In this document: in pieces, positions 5,110-49,613 of the stretch | Position numbering within the stretch: position 1 is the stretch's first letter | Layout of the letters: every line of letters begins with the position of its first letter | Assembly: GCF_017086365.1 (NCBI RefSeq) | Contig: NZ_CP070969.1 | Location: 3,968,001 to 4,032,000, forward strand | Length of the DNA stretch: 64,000 bases | Direction of reading: 5' to 3' | Source of the DNA: Paenibacillus tianjinensis | GTDB taxonomy: Bacteria; Bacillota; Bacilli; Paenibacillales; Paenibacillaceae | The notes under the pieces: generated by a model | What the model was told of the DNA's origin: nothing | What the model saw: the letters and a program-made list of their open reading frames with translations, nothing else | Databases searched by the model: none | Position numbers and translations under genes: made by a program

Positions 5110-5932
5110 GAACGGCACGATCCTTTCCGGCGGATACCGGTCCGAGCAGTTCATACACCGCGTCTTCGACGTTCTGCTGCCTCATCAGATATTCTCCCAC
5201 CAGCACACCTGTGGTACTGGTCTGGCGTAAATACTTAATGTCATCCGGTCCGGCAATCCCGCTCTCGCTGATGACAGGAACTCCACACGGCACCAGAGCC
5301 GCCAGCTCTGCTGTCGTTTCCAGTTTCGTCTCAAACGTGCGCAGATTGCGGTTATTAATACCTAGCAGCACGTGGGGCTGCTCTATTTTCCCTGTGCCGG
5401 CTACAAGCTCAAGTTCGCTGCGGTCATGGACCTCGATCAGTACATCTAGGCCAAGTGAAGCAGATAAATCTGTAAAAGCAGCTAACTGCCCGGCAGTTAG
5501 TATAGCCGCGATCAGCAGGACAGCATCCGCCCCCAATATACGGGCCTCATAAATCTGACGCTCATCGATAATAAAATCCTTGCGCAGTAAAGGAAGGTTT
5601 ACCGCTGCCCTAACCTGCTGCAAATACAAACCGCTGCCTTGAAAATAGTCTGTATCCGTTAGCACCGACAAGCAGTCGGCTCCACCTGCTTCATATCCCT
5701 GTGCGATGGATACCGGATCAAAGTCCGCACGGATCAATCCTTTAGAAGGTGAAGCCTTCTTCACCTCTGCGATAAGGCCGATCTCCCGGTTCCTCCTGCT
5801 TACAAGCGCCTCCCGGAAACCCTTTGTAGCCGTAAGCCCGGAGATTGTCTCTTCTGCGTCCTTCAAGGAAAAGATTTTGCTTAAAGCTTCGACTTCTTTG
5901 ATTTTGGTAGCGACTATTTTATCAAGATACAT
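5102..5932 (-). CDS. trpC: Indole-3-glycerol-phosphate synthase
   Basis: This enzyme closes the indole ring by converting CdRP to indole-3-glycerol phosphate. The 276-residue TIM barrel has EVKKASPSKG (catalytic lysine region), LLRKDFIID, LLGINNRNL and VISESGI, all typical of TrpC. I chose the ATG at 5932 because AAGGAG sits seven bases before it; a TTG two codons upstream is the alternative. The start lies inside the end of trpD (11-base overlap), so the two are probably translationally coupled. Confidence 0.95.
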   Translation of the reverse strand: MYLDKIVATKIKEVEALSKIFSLKDAEETISGLTATKGFREALVSRRNREIGLIAEVKKASPSKGLIRADFDPVSIAQGYEAGGADCLSVLTDTDYFQGSGLYLQQVRAAVNLPLLRKDFIIDERQIYEARILGADAVLLIAAILTAGQLAAFTDLSASLGLDVLIEVHDRSELELVAGTGKIEQPHVLLGINNRNLRTFETKLETTAELAALVPCGVPVISESGIAGPDDIKYLRQTSTTGVLVGEYLMRQQNVEDAVYELLGPVSAGKDRAVHG

Positions 5933-6962
5933 AATCAAGCTCCTTCGTCATGGCTTTTAGCTGTTCCAGCTTCAACAGCGCACTGCCGGAATCGATCATA
6001 CGGCGCGCCTCCTGGACACCTGCACTCAAGCTGTCCGCCAAACCGGCAACATAGATGCAGGCACCGGCATTAGCCAGTACGATATCACGGTATGGGGTTA
6101 AGGCTCCCTCCAGGACTGCAGTGATGATTGCAGCGTTCTCAGCTGCATCTCCGCCCAGCACATCCTCCAGCGGATGCCGCTGCAGGCCCATGGCCTCAGG
6201 GGTAATTTCATAAGTGGTGACAATACCGTCTTTCAGTTCGGATACCTGGGTAGGTGCCGATATGCTGATTTCGTCTAGACCGTCCAGACTACTGACAATC
6301 ATCGCCCGCTTGGAGCCCAGCTCCTTCAGCACATTGGCCACAATCTCAGTCTTATCACGGTCGTAGATGCCCATAAGCTGCCGATCGGCTCCTGCCGGGT
6401 TGGTTAGCGGCCCCAGCATGTTGAACACTGTCCGGAAGCCCAACTCGCGGCGCGGTGCGGCGGCATATTTCATGGACGGATGATAGATCTGGGCAAAGAG
6501 GAAGCAGATACCGATATGATCCAGGCATTGCCGGGCCTGCTCTGCGTTCAAATGAATGTTGACACCCAGGGCTTCCAGCACATCCGCACTGCCGGCTCTG
6601 CCGGAGGCGGAACGGTTGCCGTGCTTAGCTACGCGTACGGAAGCCGCTGAAGAAATAATTGCCGAAGCGGTCGAAATATTGAATTTATGAATGCCGGAGC
6701 CTCCGGTACCGCAAGTATCCAGCAGACGGGTACGCTCTGTGAGCACCGGTGTCCCGAATCCGCGCATCGCTTCCGCGAAGCCGGTGATTTCTTCCACAGT
6801 CTCCCCTTTAATCCGCAGCGCCGTCAGCAGCGCACCGATTTGCGCTGGGGTGGCCACTCCTTCCATAATGGTCCCCATAATCTCACGGGCCTGGGTCCGG
6901 CTAAGATCTTTGCCCTCGATCAGCCCGGCAATTCCTGATTGTATCATTTGACTTGCATCCAT
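5922..6962 (-). CDS. trpD: Anthranilate phosphoribosyltransferase
   Basis: This enzyme transfers the phosphoribosyl group of PRPP to anthranilate. The 346-residue protein shows the PRPP-binding CGTGGSG near residue 85 and the anthranilate-site KHGNRS near 113. A strong TAGGAGG precedes the ATG at 6962. Unlike the tightly packed genes downstream, trpD is separated from trpE by 129 bases that carry a stem-loop (7002-7031). No trpG lies in the cluster, so the glutaminase subunit is probably encoded elsewhere (pabA in the folate operon), as in Bacillus. Confidence 0.96.
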   Translation of the reverse strand: MDASQMIQSGIAGLIEGKDLSRTQAREIMGTIMEGVATPAQIGALLTALRIKGETVEEITGFAEAMRGFGTPVLTERTRLLDTCGTGGSGIHKFNISTASAIISSAASVRVAKHGNRSASGRAGSADVLEALGVNIHLNAEQARQCLDHIGICFLFAQIYHPSMKYAAAPRRELGFRTVFNMLGPLTNPAGADRQLMGIYDRDKTEIVANVLKELGSKRAMIVSSLDGLDEISISAPTQVSELKDGIVTTYEITPEAMGLQRHPLEDVLGGDAAENAAIITAVLEGALTPYRDIVLANAGACIYVAGLADSLSAGVQEARRMIDSGSALLKLEQLKAMTKELDYVS

Positions 6963-7001
6963 AGTCTTTTTCCTCCTAAAAGTTTTGTGAGCATCTACTA
7001 C

Positions 7002-39752: not shown

Positions 39753-39769
39753 ATGAAAAATTAATCACG

Positions 39770-40027
39770 CAAAACCGATGAAGGAACAAAGATTCTGGTA
39801 GTCTTCAGAGAGCCGGTGGGTGGTGCAAACCGGTGGCGGACAGAATTTTTTAGCGCTCCTGAGATATTGTATCGAACGAATAGTAGGTGCAATCGGATCA
39901 TCTCCGTTATCAGTGTGGCCTTTGCAGGCCAATGAGGCTGCTTCTTAACAGTTGCAGTGAATTAGGGTGGTACCACGATAACTCTCGTCCCTTACTACGG
40001 CAGTAGTATGGGGTTGGGGGTTTTTTT
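39770..40027 (+). promoter_or_regulatory. T-box riboswitch upstream of serA (probably tRNA-Ser)
   Basis: All parts of a T-box leader are visible. These are the AG-bulge segment CAGAGAGCC, the distal loop GGTGGTGCAAACCGG, the hairpin TGGCCT-TTGC-AGGCCA, and the T-box core AGGGTGGTACCACG (39964-39977). A terminator formed by CCCTTACTAC and GTAGTATGGG is followed by a G-rich stretch and seven T (40021-40027). Within Stem I, ATTCTG pairs with CAGAAT. The best specifier is AGC at 39852-39854, a serine codon, which fits serA; TTT and TCC nearby are alternatives. Uncharged tRNA should bind and allow readthrough. Confidence 0.93.
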
Positions 40028-40235: not shown

Positions 40236-41828
40236 ATGTTTAAAGTATTAGTATCGGATCCGATCAGTGATTTGGGCATTCAGCAATTGATGGACGCAAA
40301 CGATGTAGTTGTGGACAAGAAAACAGGACTGAGCGAAGATGAACTGATTGCCATCATTGGCGAATATGACGGTCTGCTTGTCCGCAGCCAAACGACGGTT
40401 ACCGAGAAAATAATCGCTGCCGGCACCAACCTGAAAGTTATCGGCCGTGCCGGAGTCGGAGTTGACAACATCAATCTGGAGGCGGCTACGCAGCGCGGTG
40501 TCGTAGTTATTAATGCTCCGGACGGAAACACCATCACTACCTGTGAGCATGCCTTTGCCATGATGATGGCGCTGGCCCGCCACATTCCGCAGGCTTACGC
40601 CAAAACCATAAACGGTGTATGGGACCGTAAAACGTTCCTTGGCGTTGAGCTGCGCGGCAAGACACTCGGGGTGCTTGGTATGGGCCGGATCGGCAGCGAA
40701 GTAGCCAAGCGCGCCAAAGCATTCGGTATGAACATTCTTGCCTATGACCCATTCCTGACGGCTGACCGTGCGGAGAAGCTAGAGGTGAAGCTGGCCTCGG
40801 TCGATGACATTGTACGCGGTGCTGATTTCATTACTGTACACACTCCGCTGACACCTGAAACACGCCACATGATTTCCCGCCCGCAATTCGAGGTTATGAA
40901 AAAGGGCATGCGCATCGTTAACTGTGCCCGCGGCGGTGTTATTGATGAAATGGCGCTGGTTGAAGCAATCGACAGCGGCATCGTTGCCGGAGCAGCCTTT
41001 GACGTTTTCGAGAAGGAGCCGCCGCAGGCTGATCATCCGTTCCTGTCCCATCCGAAGATCATTGTCACTCCGCATCTCGGCGCTTCGACCGTTGAAGCCC
41101 AGGAGAACGTCGCCATCGACGTATCTGAGCAGGTTCTGAATATCCTGCGCAACGAGCCGTTCATCAATGCCGTCAACATCCCGCCGGTTGCTCCAAGCGT
41201 AATGAACAAGCTTCAGCCGTACTTCACGCTCGGCGAGAAGCTGGGAAGCTTCGCAACACAGCTTACCCACGGTGCTATCAGTGAAATCAACGTTGAGTAT
41301 GCCGGAGACCTCTCCGATGTGGATACCCAGCCACTGACCCGTTATATTGTCAAAGGCGTGCTGTCCCGTCACTTCGCGGGCGATGTAAATATCGTCAACT
41401 CTATGCATTTGGCTAAAACCCGGGATGTTAACGTAATTGTTACGAAATCCCCTAAGACCAAAGGGTTCACTAACCTCATTACCGTTACTCTGAAAGCCGA
41501 TCCGGACGAGGAACGCCTGGTAGCCGGCACCCTGCTGCAGGGATACGGCGAGCGTATTGTCCAGGTGAATAAATTCCCGGTTGACATTGCTCCGGAAGGC
41601 CACCAAATTCTGATCTCCCATAACGATAAACCGGGAATTATCGGCCTCGTCGGCACATTGCTGGGCGAAAACGACGTCAATATCGCATCCATGCAGGTGG
41701 GACGCAAAATCGTCGGCGGTGCGGCAATTATGCTTCTGACCGTCGACAAGGCAGTACCGCAGCAAGTTCTGGTTAAGCTGGCAGGTTTGCAGGAAATTAA
41801 CACTGCAGAAGAAGTTATTCTGCTGTAG
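40236..41828 (+). CDS. serA: D-3-phosphoglycerate dehydrogenase
   Basis: SerA oxidises 3-phosphoglycerate to phosphohydroxypyruvate, committing carbon to serine. The 530-residue protein is the long form. An N-terminal substrate and NAD domain carries [31 protein letters not shown] (catalytic arginine), a conserved glutamate and HLGAST (catalytic histidine). An intervening domain (about 320-445) follows, then a C-terminal ACT domain ([16 protein letters not shown]), the usual serine site. It is controlled by the T-box leader and ends at a bidirectional terminator. Confidence 0.97.
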
Positions 41829-43971: not shown

Positions 43972-45222
43972 ATGAACTGGATGACCAAGCTTCCGTTAAA
44001 ACAGAGAATTGTTGCCGGTTGTTATCTTGTCGCTGCATTATTTGCTGTCCCGGTTTTAATCACGATGGTGATTATGGGCAAAATCATTCTCGGCATCGTA
44101 CTCGTTGCCGCACTGGCCGGTCTGACTTATCCGCTTGCGCGCTATGTAGAGAGAACGCTTACATCCTCTTTTGACGATATTTCCAATGTAACTCACACGA
44201 TTGCAAAAGGTGACTTCACCCTGAGGGCAGACGAAAACGGATCTATGGGCGAGGTCAGCCGTTCCTTCAACACTATGATTGACAAGCTGAAGAAAATTCT
44301 TACAGAGGCTTCACAGATCACCCGCCATGTAATGGATGCCAGCAGAGGCATTGAGGACAAAAACCACAATCTAAAAATAGTAATGGCACAGGTTGCTTCT
44401 TCCTCCAATGAACTTGCCCAGGGGGCAAATGAAATTTCCGTGGACATTGCAGATATGACGGATTCGATCAAAGATATTGAAACGAAAGTATCCAACTACA
44501 CAAGCTCTACCAAAGAAATGAATAAACGATCTATACATACGCTTGAACTGGTCGAAAAAGGCAGGCTGTCCGTTGATACCCAGGCAGAAGGCATGCGCAA
44601 AAATATTGAAGCCACGAACAAGGTGGCTAGCACCATCGAGACGCTCTCACAAAATGCCCGCGGCATTTCGATGATTGCTAAGAGCATTACTGAAATCGCC
44701 GAGCAGACCAATCTGCTGTCACTGAACGCCTCGATTGAGGCTGCACGTGCGGGTGAGCATGGACGCGGTTTCGCCGTTGTCGCTCAGGAAGTACGAAAGC
44801 TCGCTGAAGAGTCCACTTCCTCCACCAAAGAAGTCTTCAGTCTGGTCCGCAGCATTGAAGCCGATATCAAGCAGGCTGTGGAGAATATCGCAATCAATGA
44901 AGAAGTGGTTCAAGTACAGAATGAGATGATCGTCGAAACGGCACATATTTTCTCGCAAATCGTTCAAAGCGTCCAATACATAACGGAACAAATCTCTGCC
45001 TTCTCTGCGGAGAGTGACCTCATGCTGGAAAGTGCGCTCAAGATCTCCAGTGCCATTGAAAATATATCCGCGATCACCCAGCAGACTGCAGCCGGCACTG
45101 AAGAAGTATCCGCAGCCATGAATGAGCAGATTAACGCCTTGCAGTCCGTAGCCGATGAGACCGATAAAATGACCCAAGCGGTCTTCCAGCTGCAAAAAAC
45201 CATTCATATTTTCAAATTTTAA
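43972..45222 (+). CDS. Methyl-accepting chemotaxis protein without an external sensor domain
   Basis: This 416-residue chemoreceptor has two hydrophobic segments close together (about 14-34 and 37-56) with almost no loop outside. A HAMP segment (about 57-110, [19 protein letters not shown]) and a signalling domain with the hairpin tip [19 protein letters not shown] and [18 protein letters not shown] follow. It lacks a ligand-binding ectodomain, so it may sense membrane state, the cytoplasm or a partner protein. It lies directly upstream of the c-di-GMP riboswitch operon and is closed by its own terminator. Confidence 0.93.
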
Positions 45223-45238
45223 TTTACTTAATTCCATT

Positions 45239-45271
45239 GCTGCCGCTTACCTTAAGCGGCAGTTTTTTTGT
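45239..45271 (+). terminator. Terminator after the chemoreceptor gene
   Basis: CTGCCGCTTA and TAAGCGGCAG form a perfect 10-base stem around three bases, followed by seven T (45263-45269). Confidence 0.93.
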
Positions 45272-45610: not shown

Positions 45611-45638
45611 TTGACAAAGATAGAGTTAAAAATATATT
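45611..45638 (+). promoter_or_regulatory. Promoter of the c-di-GMP riboswitch operon
   Basis: A perfect -35 TTGACA (45611-45616) and -10 TATATT (45633-45638) are 16 bases apart in an AT-rich region. The predicted start is near 45645, about 20-25 bases before the aptamer. Confidence 0.75.
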
Positions 45639-45663
45639 GTAAAGTAAAATTATCCAATGAAAA

Positions 45664-45778
45664 TTTAAACAATTATTGGCAAAATTCTCCGAAAGGGAAT
45701 GACGCAAAGCCATGGATCTACAGTCTCATTTTATCGGGACCAGGACAGCCAGGTTGCCTAAGAGCCGGAACGTTTGAG
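45664..45778 (+). promoter_or_regulatory. c-di-GMP-I (GEMM) riboswitch aptamer
   Basis: The signature GACGCAAAGCC (45701-45711) follows a GAAA-capped hairpin (ATTCTCC-GAAA-GGGAAT). A second arm, GTCTC...GGGAC, leads to AGCCAGGTTGCC (45747-45758), and GGCAA at 45678 can close with TTGCC. These are the conserved blocks of the GEMM-I aptamer, including the tetraloop. It lies 20 bases after a strong promoter and before an intrinsic terminator, so c-di-GMP should decide whether the ThDP-enzyme gene is transcribed. Confidence 0.9.
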
Positions 45779-45795
45779 ACCTCTCACGTTCTAAA
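45772..45795 (+). other. Extra hairpin between aptamer and terminator
   Basis: GAACGT and ACGTTC, with an inner GAG/CTC pair, form a stem-loop between the aptamer and the terminator. It may be part of the switching platform. Confidence 0.45.
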
Positions 45796-45812
45796 TGACT
45801 ATTTAAGCAACC

Positions 45813-45845
45813 GCCTGTACTCCCTGAGTACAGGTTTTCTATTTT
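45813..45845 (+). terminator. Riboswitch-controlled intrinsic terminator
   Basis: CCTGTACTC and GAGTACAGG form a perfect 9-base stem around three bases, followed by TTTTCTATTTT. It lies between the aptamer and the first gene. Whether ligand turns the operon on or off cannot be told from the sequence alone. Confidence 0.88.
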
Positions 45846-45862
45846 CGTAAGATAAATACACA

Positions 45863-47515
45863 ATGGATAGGGTGGAGCTTTTGAAAACAGTCGCAGATTA
45901 TATGGCTGAGGCACTACGAAACCTCGGTGTAACACATTCCTTTGGTATCATTGGCAAATCTATTTGTCCTGTTGTTCTCAAAATGGTTGATTACGGCATT
46001 GAGTTTATTCCAGGAAGACATGAATCAAGCTCCGGATTCGAAGCCGCCGGCTATGCTCTTAAAACCGGTAATCTCGGGGTAGCCTTCGGCACCTCAGGAC
46101 CCGGCGGAACGAATTTACTCACTGCTGCAGCCCATGCCAAGGCGAATAACCTTCCTGTCCTGTTTATTACCGGACATCAGTCCATAAAGGAGCTGGGGAT
46201 TCCCCAGTGTCAGGATTCCTCATCCTATCTGGCGGATCTGGCAGAGATGTTCAGACCCGCTACGCTATTCAGCAAGCTGGTAGAGCGCGGCGATCATTTC
46301 AGTACCCTCTTTAATCATGCTGTCTCTATTGCTTTAGGCGGTCAGCGTGGACCGGTCCACTTATGCCTCCCCTTTGATGTCCAGACCGAAAGGCTCGAAG
46401 AATGCCGAATTGTGATTCCTGAGCGCGAGCCCGTCATCAGCATCGCTAATTTCGAGCGGGTAGTCTCCGCCATTAATAAGGCCTCTAATCCTCTTATTGT
46501 CGCTGGTAAGGGCGTCAATCGATCCGGTGCCCACCAGGAGCTTGCGCAGCTGGCGGAAACGTTCAATATTCCTGTGGTTACTTCTCCCGGGGGCAAAGGC
46601 GCCATTGCCTGGGATCACCCGCTGTATCATGGCCCGGTCGGTGTGGGAGGATGCAGTCATGGTGATGATTTGCTGAATAGCAGCGACCTGTATATTGTGC
46701 TTGGTTCACGCCTCAGTGATATGACCATCTGTAATCTTAAGGCGGAGAATCATCCGGCTACCCTGATCCAATTCGATGTCGATCCTACTTATGTCGGTAA
46801 AATTCTGAACTCACAGACTATCCCGGTTAGCGGTGATGTTCGTGACAATCTGGCTTACTACCTGCAGAATATCGATAGAGATACTATTAAAAAACATGAA
46901 ACAAAAGCCGATGTTCATTATGCAGAAAAATTACCAGTACTGCCTAAACTTTCACTTGCTTCGGTAATGAGTACATTTAGTGACCTGATCCCATATAACA
47001 GTTCAGTTTTTGTGGATGATGGCAGCCATGGCTTCAATGCCGTGAAATGGTACAACGTGAAGAAACCCGGCAGCTTTATTTTCGATGCTTATTTTGCCTG
47101 CATGGGCAATGCCATCGGTATGGCTATAGGCGCTAAAGTTGCTGCGCCGGAAGAAACGGTATTCTGCATTACCGGAGACGGCTGCTTTATGATGCTTGGC
47201 GCGGAAATAAACACCGCAGTGTGCAAAAACATTCCGGTTATTTTTATCGTGGTCAACAACATGCAGCTGGATATGGCTCTAAAGGGTATGGAAAAAACAA
47301 CTGGCAGAATCGATGGCACGATCTTCGAAGTTCCGATGGACGCAGTGAAATTCGCCGAATCACTCGGAGCGACCGGCTACAGATGCGAGACAGCTGACCA
47401 ATTCTCTGCGGCCGTAAATGCTGCTGTAGCGTCAAACCGGGTAGCTGTTATTGAGCTGCTGACCGACCGTGATGAAATGCCTCCAACGGCCCACCGCACC
47501 TTAAATCTCAACTAA
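45863..47515 (+). CDS. ThDP-dependent enzyme, acetolactate-synthase-like
   Basis: This 550-residue protein has the three-domain ThDP fold of acetolactate synthase, pyruvate oxidase and acyloin synthases. The catalytic glutamate lies in GRHESSSGFEAAGYA (E54), a central Rossmann-like domain contains PLIVAGKGVNRSG, and the cofactor motif runs from GDG (438-440) to NN (465-466). No regulatory subunit and no other branched-chain amino acid gene is nearby, so ordinary valine/isoleucine synthesis is unlikely. It may join or decarboxylate 2-oxo acids in a specialised pathway. The ATG at 45863 has no good ribosome-binding site. A TTG at 45881 is preceded by AGGGTGGAG and may be the true start. Confidence 0.85.
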   Translation: MDRVELLKTVADYMAEALRNLGVTHSFGIIGKSICPVVLKMVDYGIEFIPGRHESSSGFEAAGYALKTGNLGVAFGTSGPGGTNLLTAAAHAKANNLPVLFITGHQSIKELGIPQCQDSSSYLADLAEMFRPATLFSKLVERGDHFSTLFNHAVSIALGGQRGPVHLCLPFDVQTERLEECRIVIPEREPVISIANFERVVSAINKASNPLIVAGKGVNRSGAHQELAQLAETFNIPVVTSPGGKGAIAWDHPLYHGPVGVGGCSHGDDLLNSSDLYIVLGSRLSDMTICNLKAENHPATLIQFDVDPTYVGKILNSQTIPVSGDVRDNLAYYLQNIDRDTIKKHETKADVHYAEKLPVLPKLSLASVMSTFSDLIPYNSSVFVDDGSHGFNAVKWYNVKKPGSFIFDAYFACMGNAIGMAIGAKVAAPEETVFCITGDGCFMMLGAEINTAVCKNIPVIFIVVNNMQLDMALKGMEKTTGRIDGTIFEVPMDAVKFAESLGATGYRCETADQFSAAVNAAVASNRVAVIELLTDRDEMPPTAHRTLNLN

Positions 47516-47587
47516 CCGGATTCACCGGCACAACTCAAACCTGTCATGTTCTTTCGAAATGCTATCAAATTTCAGGAGGTATCTTCA

Positions 47588-47956
47588 GTGGAAAATACGG
47601 TTAACAGCGGTCTAAAGCACTTCTCCAATCTGTCCGGTGACTATGGCGCCAAAGCTCTGGCTCCAATTAAAGAGCATTTTCCGGAATTGGCTGAGTACAT
47701 CATGGGTAATGCTTACGGTGACATTTTTCAGCGCACTACGATCGGTTCTGACTGGAAGGAAATTGCCGTCATTTCCTCTCTGATCACCATGGGACAGTTT
47801 GAGCAATTAGGGGTTCATTATGTGATGGCGCTGCGAGTCGGTATGACCGTGGATCAGATCAAAGGGATCTTGCTTCATCTAGTACCGTGCGTCGGTGCTC
47901 CGAGAATCATTTCCGCCTTTAATGTCCTGCTTGCCACACTCGAAGAAATCCAATAA
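47588..47956 (+). CDS. Carboxymuconolactone-decarboxylase-family protein
   Basis: This 122-residue protein starts at GTG 47588 ((M)ENTVNSGLKHFSNLSGDYG), with AGGAGG eight bases upstream. The frame is open earlier, but that part covers the ribosome-binding site. HYVMALRVGMTVDQIKGILLHL is the CMD core. It has the histidine of the gamma-CMD type (H near residue 77) and not the CxxC of AhpD peroxidase-type members. The protein is all helical and probably oligomeric. It follows the ThDP gene by 72 bases under the same riboswitch. In small-molecule clusters such proteins act as decarboxylases or isomerases; the substrate here is unknown. Confidence 0.8.
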   Translation: MENTVNSGLKHFSNLSGDYGAKALAPIKEHFPELAEYIMGNAYGDIFQRTTIGSDWKEIAVISSLITMGQFEQLGVHYVMALRVGMTVDQIKGILLHLVPCVGAPRIISAFNVLLATLEEIQ

Positions 47957-48049
47957 ATTGATTAGCGGCATTTTAATGCATGATTCGACTTTTTTCTTGC
48001 ACAAATGAGAATATTATGGTTATATTAAGGCAAATTATCCCATTACCTA

Positions 48050-48080
48050 AAGTTTCTTGTCGAAAACCGACTTAAAACTT
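48050..48080. promoter_or_regulatory. 31-base dyad overlapping the internal promoter
   Basis: AAGTTT-ctt-GTCG-aaaac-CGAC-tta-AAACTT is symmetric, with outer 6-base and inner 4-base complementary arms. It overlaps the -35 of the internal promoter, so it could be an operator. If transcribed from the riboswitch promoter it would also fold as an RNA hairpin. Confidence 0.5.
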
Positions 48081-48100
48081 CTAGTTTTTGGATATATAAT
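48072..48100 (+). promoter_or_regulatory. Internal promoter before the STAS-like gene
   Basis: A perfect -10 TATAAT (48095-48100) has TTAAAA (48072-48077) 17 bases upstream. It would let the last two genes be expressed without riboswitch readthrough. Downstream, GCCGACCA/TGGCCGGC and CTGCA/TGCAG form two small stems in the leader. Confidence 0.6.
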
Positions 48101-48171
48101 AGCCGACCAATGCTGGCCGGCTGCATATTTTGCAGAAGACACACACATTCAATTTTGGGAGAGATGAGCAC

Positions 48172-48516
48172 ATGGGTAAATTTATTTTGAAAACCGATTC
48201 TGTTAACAAGGTCATTAATGTCGAATTAGAAGGTACCTTCTCCAATGAGGACGGCCTTAAATCGATTCAAGCCTATCAGCAGACGGTCAATCCGATCACA
48301 CCATCTGAATATTCTCTGCAGATCGACTGCAGAAAGCTAAATGTTACTGCTCCAGATGTTGTGCCGCTGCTGGAAGGCTGCTTCATCATGTTCAAAGCAG
48401 ACGGTTTCGAAAAAGTAAGCCTGACCCTTGAAAACAATCCGATCCTCAAAATGCAGCTCGCCCGTCTTGGCCGCAAAGCAGGACTAGAAAACCTGGAAAT
48501 CACTTCGATCGTTTAA
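48172..48516 (+). CDS. Small STAS-like protein
   Basis: This 114-residue protein starts MGKFILKTDSVNKVINVELE at ATG 48172, with GGGAGAG eight bases upstream. The alternation of short strands and helices (VINVELEGTFSNEDGL, YSLQIDCRKLNVTAPDVV, FEKVSLTLENNP) resembles a STAS or SpoIIAA-like fold, but without an obvious phosphorylatable serine motif. It lies 36 bases before the ketosynthase-like gene and is probably its partner. Function unknown. Confidence 0.65.
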   Translation: MGKFILKTDSVNKVINVELEGTFSNEDGLKSIQAYQQTVNPITPSEYSLQIDCRKLNVTAPDVVPLLEGCFIMFKADGFEKVSLTLENNPILKMQLARLGRKAGLENLEITSIV

Positions 48517-48551
48517 GAGCATTACTCCACTAACTTTACAGGAGGGCTACC

Positions 48552-49544
48552 ATGGCCGGAATACGTATTAAGGATATTGATATCTATCATCCAAGTAAAA
48601 AGATTGATAATGACTTTTTCATACAGCATTTTGATGAAAAGGGTATAGATATCCGCGGACTCCTGACAGCTCTGGGCCGTGAGAGCCGCTACAGTATTGA
48701 CAACGAGGAAGAGAATTCCCTGACTATGGCCTTTGAGGCAGCAAGCAATGTACTGGACAAGACAGGCCTTACCGGTGCTGACATTGACCTTATCGCTTAT
48801 GCCAGTCAGACTCCTGAATACATCTTTCCTACGAACTCGCTGATGATTCACCGGCTGATCGGCGGTGCCTCCCATACCATTTGCATCGACAGCAATGCGA
48901 ACTGCGCCGGTATGACCGCTTCTGTAGAACAGGTAAGCCGCCAGATGATGGCTAACCCGAGAATCCGCCGGGCACTGGTTATCGGATCGGACCACGTGGC
49001 GCCGCATGCCGACAGGAATGATCCGGTCTACTATGCCAACTTCGGAGACGCTGCCGCGGCAGTGATCCTCGAGCGTGATGAGAATTCCGTTGGCTTCATC
49101 GATTCCATTTACCAGACAGACACCTGCGTCTATGGCAATTCGATGTTCCCTGCAGAAGGGATGGCGAACCTTGGCCGCCGCGGGGTAGGCAAAGGTGAGT
49201 TCAACGTAAAGTTTATTCCTTTTGACGATTCCATTTGTGTGGATGCAGCCTCAGAGTCTATCAATACGCTTCTGAGTGATAACGGGATTGCTCCTGAAAC
49301 CATTAAAGCGGCATGCTTCTCCCAGTTATCCCTGCCAAACATTCGTGCCGTATCTGACAAAACCGGTATCGGCAGCGACGCTGCCGTCTATATCGGCGAT
49401 GAGTTCGGCTATACTTCGACGAGCAGCCCCTTTGTCGCTCTTCATAAAGCAGTGACTACCGGCAAGATTGAGCGGGGCGACAAGGTTCTTTTCTGGACGG
49501 TCGGCGCCGGCTGGCAGAACGTAGCCTTTGTGATGGAATACTAA
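48552..49544 (+). CDS. Ketosynthase III-like (FabH-fold) enzyme with altered active site
   Basis: This 330-residue thiolase-fold protein has the nucleophile cysteine in DSNANCAGM (C118), as in FabH. The other two catalytic positions differ. Where FabH reads HQAN this protein reads SLPN (S260-N263), and where FabH reads GNTS it reads GYTS (Y287). The histidine and asparagine needed for decarboxylating malonyl-ACP are therefore missing. It may instead transfer an acyl group from its cysteine to another acceptor, as some specialised KAS III relatives do. AGGAGGG precedes the ATG. A strong terminator follows. Confidence 0.85.
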   Translation: MAGIRIKDIDIYHPSKKIDNDFFIQHFDEKGIDIRGLLTALGRESRYSIDNEEENSLTMAFEAASNVLDKTGLTGADIDLIAYASQTPEYIFPTNSLMIHRLIGGASHTICIDSNANCAGMTASVEQVSRQMMANPRIRRALVIGSDHVAPHADRNDPVYYANFGDAAAAVILERDENSVGFIDSIYQTDTCVYGNSMFPAEGMANLGRRGVGKGEFNVKFIPFDDSICVDAASESINTLLSDNGIAPETIKAACFSQLSLPNIRAVSDKTGIGSDAAVYIGDEFGYTSTSSPFVALHKAVTTGKIERGDKVLFWTVGAGWQNVAFVMEY

Positions 49545-49566: not shown

Positions 49567-49613
49567 AAAAAGCAACCTGAAGGCTAGCTATACTAGTCTT
49601 CAGGTTGCTTTTT
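49567..49613. terminator. Bidirectional terminator between the KAS III-like gene and glpK
   Basis: AAAAAGCAACCTGAAG and CTTCAGGTTGCTTTTT form a perfect stem around a 15-base loop, with A/T runs on both sides. It ends both converging transcripts. Confidence 0.92.

Follow-up and report, generated by a model that had tools for sequence, protein, structure and literature searches.

We analyzed a 64,000-nucleotide stretch of the Paenibacillus tianjinensis genome (contig NZ_CP070969.1, positions 3,968,001 to 4,032,000; this whole stretch is called the window below), in which a c-di-GMP-I (GEMM-I) riboswitch aptamer precedes a set of four genes. These encode, in order, a thiamine diphosphate (ThDP)-dependent enzyme, a carboxymuconolactone decarboxylase (CMD)-family protein, a STAS-fold protein and an enzyme resembling ketoacyl synthase III (KAS III; its family is called KAS below). 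The reading that we put forward, with a probability of roughly 45%, is that of a cyclic di-GMP (c-di-GMP) OFF switch acting on a short pathway, in which the ThDP enzyme and the CMD protein would make an acyloin and the KAS and STAS proteins would acylate it. The GEMM-I switch, the ThDP carboligase and the KAS-type acyltransferase are known parts, in a combination for which we found no description. In the titles and abstract openings of the open-licence literature on Paenibacillus or biosynthetic gene clusters, no link between a c-di-GMP riboswitch and such genes appeared, and the part of PMC12452182 that was available held nothing on this gene set.

A GEMM-I aptamer in the leader

Analysis of the leader with the Rfam covariance model RF01051 revealed a full-length match (model positions 1-87 of 87) with a score of 68.4 bits, compared with a gathering score of 35, and an E-value of 2.8e-11. 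In an alignment that was fitted to the model, and therefore leans toward pairing, 91.1% of the helix cells of 28 aptamers (25 distinct) were paired, compared with 19-46% in slid versions. Covariation comprised 48 two-sided cells and a score of 0.303, reached by none of 500 shuffles, and 11 pairs with two-sided changes, reached by 5/500 shuffles; the number of further pair types in the helices was not above that of the shuffles (307/500). The G before GC in GGCAAA, a ligand-contacting position that we take to be G20 in the numbering of Vc2, is present in the window, in all 18 loci with the order aptamer-ThDP-CMD-STAS-KAS (own-type loci), and in loci L044 and L045. The window aptamer is canonical and is predicted to read c-di-GMP.

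The promoter of the leader ranked first among 16 promoter-like sites between 43800 and 49700 (mean of 9.6 in shuffles), and its block is kept in all 13 aligned leaders, which represent 13 of the 19 own-type leaders. A terminator was found by scanning in 26 of the 28 leaders. The original prediction, made from the letters of the DNA alone, had placed a strong promoter, a GEMM-I aptamer and a terminator 3′ of it at this site, and all three were recovered (Table 1). The window's genome holds six RF01051 matches, this one included. Two of them form a tandem pair (C1:573623-573858; L001 and L002), preceding a protein with a signal-peptide-like start, as read from its open reading frame (ORF).

Linkage of the four genes across genomes

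The family survey covered 148 genomes, with E-value cut-offs of 1e-60 for KAS, 1e-150 for ThDP, 1e-10 for STAS and 1e-25 for CMD, and gave 51 genomes positive for KAS, 30 for ThDP, 53 for the STAS-like protein and 30 for CMD. Within 4 kb of the ThDP gene in its 30 positive genomes, CMD was present in 30, STAS in 26, KAS in 23 and an aptamer in 12 (searched with stricter filters in 42 chosen genomes of the 148, to which the ThDP-positive G062 does not belong), which bears out the linked gene set proposed before. All 12 aptamer-bearing genomes fall among the 14 ThDP-positive genomes of the window's own genus. In two genomes of this genus (G074 and G110), the ThDP match is interrupted by an in-frame stop, and aptamer, STAS and KAS are all missing beside it; the cluster appears to be decaying there. 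Three genomes (G064, G102 and G142) have ThDP-CMD-STAS without an adjacent KAS but with another STAS-KAS pair elsewhere, and G053 keeps aptamer, ThDP and CMD with neither STAS nor KAS beside them.

Comparison of 80 named loci of 170 relatives distinguished, by gene content, 18 own-type loci, 26 P. amylolyticus-type loci with the same four genes, 16 Cohnella-type loci, 15 loci with the STAS-KAS pair only, three Xenorhabdus loci and two others. In a tree of 79 KAS proteins, which excludes two early-ending X. vietnamensis frames and two XclB-like proteins, these groups are nearly clades, with six changes against a minimum of five (the L045 row being out of frame and on a very long branch). The nearest named relatives of the window KAS are those of P. 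ihuae and P. auburnensis, at 99%.

An aptamer was detected in 27 of the 80 loci, always on the coding strand: 18/18 own-type, 9/16 Cohnella-type (including L049, weak with an E-value of 0.074) and 0/46 of the other loci. The model used was built from the six copies of the window's genome, so that the window match is there by construction, and L039 and L041 had too little upstream DNA for the search. A regular-expression scan found fewer aptamers than this covariance model. Rfam models applied to nine loci gave a match in three, including one to RF03167 (c-di-GMP-I-GGC); the six loci in which they found nothing were also those in which the own-genome model found nothing.

The 15 STAS-KAS-only loci (L102-L116), in which KAS lies near 7001 (near 6518 in L104) with STAS just upstream and no adjoining ThDP gene, belong to Paenibacillus, Oceanobacillus, Gottfriedia, Neobacillus, Metabacillus, Ornithinibacillus and Rummeliibacillus. 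In L116, part of a ThDP sequence is matched at the distal end of the locus, on the opposite strand.

A second lineage with another ThDP enzyme

The Cohnella-type loci, found in Cohnella, P. oralis and others, form a second lineage, in which a GEMM-type aptamer precedes a chemoreceptor gene, followed by a ThDP gene of another lineage, STAS and KAS. No conserved promoter was seen in the alignment of eight upstream regions of this type. The ligand-contacting G is replaced by C in L038, L040, L043, L046-L048 and the weak L049, so that c-di-GMP is not to be assumed as the ligand of these aptamers; the best match of the L040 aptamer is the variant family RF03167. The own, Cohnella-type and Xenorhabdus ThDP lineages share 20-29% mutual identity and all stand beside the same kind of KAS, which suggests independent pairing with this enzyme.

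In L040, L046 and L053, the last without a detected aptamer, a GAF-domain gene follows the chemoreceptor gene and is itself followed by ThDP, STAS and KAS. Its product has about 145 residues (L040 4485-4919, L046 4520-4960, L053 4525-4950). No match to this protein was found in the window's genome, a weak negative given that the search had no positive control.

Enzyme families and predicted activities

The ThDP enzyme matches the three TPP_enzyme domains of Pfam, consistent with the acetolactate-synthase-like protein claimed earlier, and its catalytic residues are intact. It falls under the curated cut-off of all 25 NCBIfam families listed among the 58 matched. The nearest PDB sequences are BbmA and CsmA, titled 'ThDP-dependent HKA synthase' (8x3x, 8xod, 8x3z), with 30-32% identity over more than 500 residues, and a fold search with the structural model (predicted local distance difference test, pLDDT, 85.6) ranks the BbmA and CsmA entries first. 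We read HKA in these entry titles as alpha-hydroxy-beta-keto acid, in agreement with the activity of CqsB3 and NzsH given in the available parts of PMC7466098 and PMC9822442. The window enzyme is probably an acyloin-type carboligase. A second IlvB-like protein, of 536 residues, is encoded elsewhere in the same genome (C1:4564102; L118 1413-3023), with no IlvN-like ORF within 4.5 kb.

The CMD protein, also announced by the earlier analysis, matches PF02627 with 39.4 bits (cut-off 23). Its GTG start is the likelier one because 21 of 27 homologues, a count that excludes three near-identical proteins, have alignments that start only at residues 13-18, and because AGGAGG lies just upstream. An AhpD-like peroxidase was rejected on reading the sequence, which has a single Cys and no CxxC.

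The STAS-like protein gave no Pfam or NCBIfam match at an E-value of 0.001. The Pfam STAS family PF01740 does not match it and matches 2 of 41 members, with a best E-value of 0.1; comparison with PHROGs reached only 0.14, and the profile searched against PDB sequences returned chance-like matches of 0.29 and worse. Although Pfam is silent, the structural model has a SpoIIAA/STAS fold, with Foldseek and VIA matches to SpoIIAA, RsbS and SiaC, so that the STAS-like assignment stands. A Thr or Ser near residue 59 is found in the operon-type members listed and not in some of the STAS-KAS-only ones (every second row).

The last enzyme of the set had been described as having a FabH fold. Its family was confirmed by PF08545 and PF08541, but its triad is not of the FabH type, with Ser and Tyr replacing His and Asn, and its score with NCBIfam fabH is 116.1 bits against a cut-off of 292.1. 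The Cys-Ser-Tyr triad is present in 78 of 83 rows; the remaining five are two Xenorhabdus XclB-like proteins (Thr-Tyr-Ser), the two early-ending X. vietnamensis frames and the out-of-frame L045, which reads as Cys-Ser-Tyr in frame. As decarboxylation by FabH uses His and Asn, the enzyme is more likely to be an acyltransferase than an ordinary ketosynthase. A housekeeping FabH was ruled out by the same loss.

In the proposed pathway, the CMD-family protein would remove the carboxylate of the ThDP enzyme's product to give the acyloin, and the KAS III-like enzyme, with its STAS-fold partner, would acylate this acyloin from a coenzyme A or acyl carrier protein (ACP) thioester. The combination of 2-oxo acid chemistry and acyl transfer suggested originally agrees with the nearest characterized relatives; the individual reactions and the product are those that we infer.

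Predicted switch logic

At low c-di-GMP, the 3′ strand of the aptamer would pair at the 5′ arm of the terminator, forming an antiterminator, so that ThDP and CMD would be transcribed. When c-di-GMP is high, the 3′ strand would stay within the folded aptamer and the terminator would form. We predict this OFF direction at high c-di-GMP with moderate confidence.

Folding of growing window transcripts revealed pairing of the aptamer 3′ strand with bases at the terminator 5′ arm before the terminator completes. Among Watson-Crick matches in the window leader, GGUUGC/GCAACC is the longest, and 42/300 shuffles reached this length. Pairing of the aptamer 3′ end with downstream sequence was above the mean of the shuffles for 17 leaders out of 21; these statistics cover 21 of the 28 leaders, with four near-copies (L056, L057, L059 and L100), two leaders without a terminator (L044 and L065) and the weak L049 excluded. 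L040 and L043 show a 9-base match that none of 300 shuffles reached, and of the 14 own-type matches, 11 are within what shuffles commonly give. The predicted OFF logic fits a chemoreceptor as the first gene of the Cohnella-type operon.

Promoter-like sequences ahead of the STAS gene

The STAS gene is preceded by a 215-bp gap with conserved promoter-like sequence, so that the riboswitch need not be the sole control of STAS and KAS. A TATATT/TATAAT-like block is seen in most of 15 aligned gaps. The hexamer TTCGAC/GTCGAA occurs before the STAS gene in 17/19 own-type and 26/26 P. amylolyticus-type regions, compared with 2/15 Cohnella-type and 0/15 STAS-KAS-only loci and a background of 0.11 per 260 bp; in this count of 75 upstream regions, loci within a group are close relatives and the numbers are not independent. 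The TTCGAC and TGTCGAA sites resemble the Spo0A-box consensus, and the STAS-KAS pair probably has its own promoter with Spo0A-box-like sites. No terminator is listed on the + strand of the gap, so that transcription from the riboswitch promoter may also read through into STAS and KAS. STAS and KAS would be transcribed partly by this read-through and partly from their own promoter. The proposed riboswitch control of all four genes is therefore retained for ThDP and CMD, which the switch directly precedes, and qualified for the STAS-KAS pair.

Table 1. Features of the riboswitch locus and its surroundings (positions in the window)
Feature	Position	Strand	Basis or remark
Chemoreceptor (HAMP + MCPsignal), no evident extracellular domain, upstream of the switch	43972..45222	+	
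Strong terminator-like hairpin 3′ of the chemoreceptor gene	45239..45263	+	11 pairs, 6 GC, T-run
Sigma-A-type promoter TTGACA-16-TATATT	45611..45638	+	11/12 consensus matches
c-di-GMP-I (GEMM-I) riboswitch aptamer	45668..45761	+	Rfam RF01051
GGUUGC, aptamer 3′ strand, proposed antiterminator 5′ strand	45752..45757	+	Folding of nascent leaders
GCAACC, proposed antiterminator 3′ strand, abuts terminator arm	45807..45812	+	Folding of nascent leaders
Intrinsic terminator of the leader	45813..45835	+	10 pairs (one G-U, 5 GC), then T-rich tail
ThDP-dependent enzyme, probable alpha-hydroxy-beta-keto-acid (acyloin-type) synthase	45863..47515	+	Pfam TPP_enzyme N, M, C; start uncertain by a few codons
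CMD-family protein	47588..47956	+	GTG start preferred; ORF from ATG starts at 47546
TTCGAC, Spo0A-box-like half site	47984..47989	+	Enriched hexamer upstream of STAS
Promoter-like TTGCAC-18-TATATT before the STAS gene	47997..48026	+	Weak consensus match
TGTCGAA, Spo0A-box-like site	48058..48064	+	Exact 7-mer, either direction, in 13/19 own-type upstream regions
STAS/SpoIIAA-fold protein, 114 aa	48172..48516	+	AlphaFold model, pLDDT 94.2
KAS III-like enzyme, Cys118-Ser257-Tyr287 replacing Cys-His-Asn; probable acyltransferase	48552..49544	+	PF08545/PF08541
Inverted repeat (A- and T-runs) 3′ of the KAS gene, probable bidirectional terminator toward glpK	49567..49613	.	Sequence reading; outside the scan's loop limit of 8

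Neighboring genes

The hairpin that follows the chemoreceptor gene indicates that this gene is probably a separate transcript. A close homologue of the chemoreceptor lies upstream in 16 of the 18 own-type loci; L098 has none, and L085 has too little upstream DNA. Orthology with the chemoreceptors of the Cohnella-type lineage is not supported, the window protein being only 12th of the 29 matches of its genome to the P. oralis chemoreceptor. Further upstream, a T-box leader (39769-39995, 101.5 bits) precedes a gene at 40236 whose sequence suggests 3-phosphoglycerate dehydrogenase, an ordinary arrangement.

Alternative readings

Several observations weigh against an OFF switch on an acyloin pathway. 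The CMD protein scores 38.5 bits with the PcaC equivalog TIGR02425, whose cut-off is 155.7. An adjacent KAS is lacking in 7 of the 30 ThDP-positive genomes, and in all 26 P. amylolyticus-type loci the four genes are present but no aptamer was detected, which indicates that the gene set can do without the switch. The antiterminator value of the window leader is reached by 7/40 shuffles, just 5 of the 21 leaders have values reached by at most 2/40, and 4 of the 21 lie below the shuffled mean. The equilibrium probability of the terminator is 0.997 and 0.998, whether the aptamer is enforced or not, so that switching, if it occurs, would have to be kinetic. Neither a transporter nor a gene for 2-oxo-acid supply was seen among the neighbors between 41905 and 51157, and the window and Xenorhabdus ThDP enzymes are only about 26% identical, which means that product identity cannot be transferred from one to the other.

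The four leaders below the shuffled mean and the terminator that is stable in both equilibrium states would suit an ON switch or a translational one, with the genes made at high c-di-GMP in the biofilm state, and GEMM-I switches of both ON and OFF types exist. We consider this direction unlikely, since most leaders carry a terminator, that of the window still forms when the aptamer is enforced, and the terminator 5′ arm or its adjoining bases can pair with the aptamer 3′ strand in two separate lineages. On the side of the chemistry, it is likewise doubtful that the KAS III-like enzyme forms a C-C bond in the manner of CqsB1 in carbazole biosynthesis, by a decarboxylative condensation of the alpha-hydroxy-beta-keto acid and an acyl thioester, while the CMD protein isomerizes or is non-catalytic. 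The pairing of ThDP and KAS genes would be the same, but His and Asn have given way to Ser and Tyr in every full-length in-frame member examined except the two XclB-like proteins, which lack the Cys too, and the constancy of CMD as a partner (30/30) fits a separate decarboxylation step. That an ordinary acetolactate synthase or acetoin route happens to follow a riboswitch is highly improbable: the fold and family are like those of acetohydroxyacid synthase, but the score with TIGR00118 (IlvB) is 294.5 bits against a cut-off of 538.35, no IlvN adjoins the gene, the genome has an ilvB-ilvN-ilvC set at another site, and BbmA and CsmA are nearer than any PDB acetolactate synthase listed. Ordinary acetohydroxyacid synthase was rejected on these grounds. 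As far as tested, the leader has its GEMM-I match, the homologues are linked rather than scattered, and the ThDP enzyme is distinct from an ordinary IlvB. Comparison of the four proteins with PADLOC gave no match at an E-value of 0.01, which argues against an anti-phage system.

The gene set could also be a sensory module, in which STAS, GAF and degenerate enzyme-fold proteins would bind ligands on behalf of a chemoreceptor that has no sensor domain of its own. A chemoreceptor gene is upstream in most own-type and in 13/16 Cohnella-type loci, and together with the GAF-domain gene it heads the operon in L040, L046 and L053; the KAS has lost catalytic residues, and the STAS fold resembles that of regulators. 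We find this very unlikely in view of the intact catalytic residues of the ThDP enzyme and of the same KAS type in a Xenorhabdus cluster taken as biosynthetic. There is no specific orthology between the chemoreceptors of the own-type and Cohnella-type lineages, L050 has a chemoreceptor without the GAF gene, and L042 has a similar small ORF without a chemoreceptor (ORF reading). In the 15 STAS-KAS-only loci, no chemoreceptor gene adjoins the pair, two loci having one about 5 kb away on the other strand, and in the window a terminator separates it from the switch. A rather improbable extension of the pathway reading would make the locus a c-di-GMP-gated signaling cassette: the acylated acyloin of swimming cells would be a diffusible signal, the sensorless chemoreceptor with GAF or STAS proteins would read the pathway or its product, and the two lineages, whose ThDP enzymes and chemoreceptors differ, would have converged on a set of switch, chemoreceptor, ThDP, STAS and KAS.

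If an OFF switch on an acyloin pathway is indeed what the locus encodes, a c-di-GMP riboswitch would directly control a metabolite pathway, which is not among the usual targets (motility, adhesion and c-di-GMP turnover), and production of the compound may be tied to swimming versus settling. The analysis also points to a KAS III-like family with a Cys-Ser-Tyr site and a STAS-fold partner gene (absent in Xenorhabdus), which stands beside three ThDP lineages and occurs as STAS-KAS pairs alone in several Bacillota genera.

Comparison with known systems

The window riboswitch resembles known GEMM-I elements in its full-length RF01051 match and in the usual G before GC in GGCAAA, and differs from them in preceding a pair of enzymes for small molecules. 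Three of the other four GEMM sites of the same genome, one site being the tandem pair, precede proteins with signal-peptide-like starts, and the fourth an ORF of no assigned identity, as read from the ORFs.

BbmA and CsmA are the closest solved relatives of the window ThDP enzyme by sequence and fold, but their identity to it is too low for orthology. No paper on either was found among the open-licence matches listed, nor one on 'clostrocyloin', and the available part of PMC12247030 held no mention of Xcl or sattabacin. In the carbazole pathway, the ThDP enzymes NzsH and CqsB3 make an alpha-hydroxy-beta-keto acid that is passed to the KASIII-like CqsB1, according to the available part of PMC7466098. 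Compared by description, the handing of a ThDP product to a KASIII-like enzyme is shared with the window; the actinomycete pathways differ in having an ACP, a second KASIII and a cyclase.

The xenocyloin cluster xcl of Xenorhabdus bovienii, reportedly described by Proschak et al. in 2014, also has a ThDP gene beside KAS III-like genes of the same type. Locus L037 of X. bovienii T228 is probably this cluster and its second KAS probably XclC, judging from species and gene order. This locus also encodes a KAS-fold protein without Cys, His or Asn (5856-6887) that adjoins the Cys-Ser-Tyr KAS. PqsBC is a heterodimer, and the two KAS-fold proteins of L037 may, by analogy, form one of the same kind. 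In the available parts of the literature, XclB and XclC are named ester-forming condensing-type enzymes (PMC4425429), and xenocyloins are indole compounds of which B and D are active on insect haemocytes (PMC6305712). Several features set the window apart from xcl: its ThDP enzyme shares 25.6% identity with that of Xenorhabdus, no closer than the Cohnella-type enzyme at 26-28%, and is not an XclA orthologue; STAS, CMD and aptamer were not detected in the three Xenorhabdus loci; and Xenorhabdus carries the additional KAS lacking the Cys. The second KAS of X. bovienii T228 has the Cys-Ser-Tyr triad and 47-48% identity to the window KAS.

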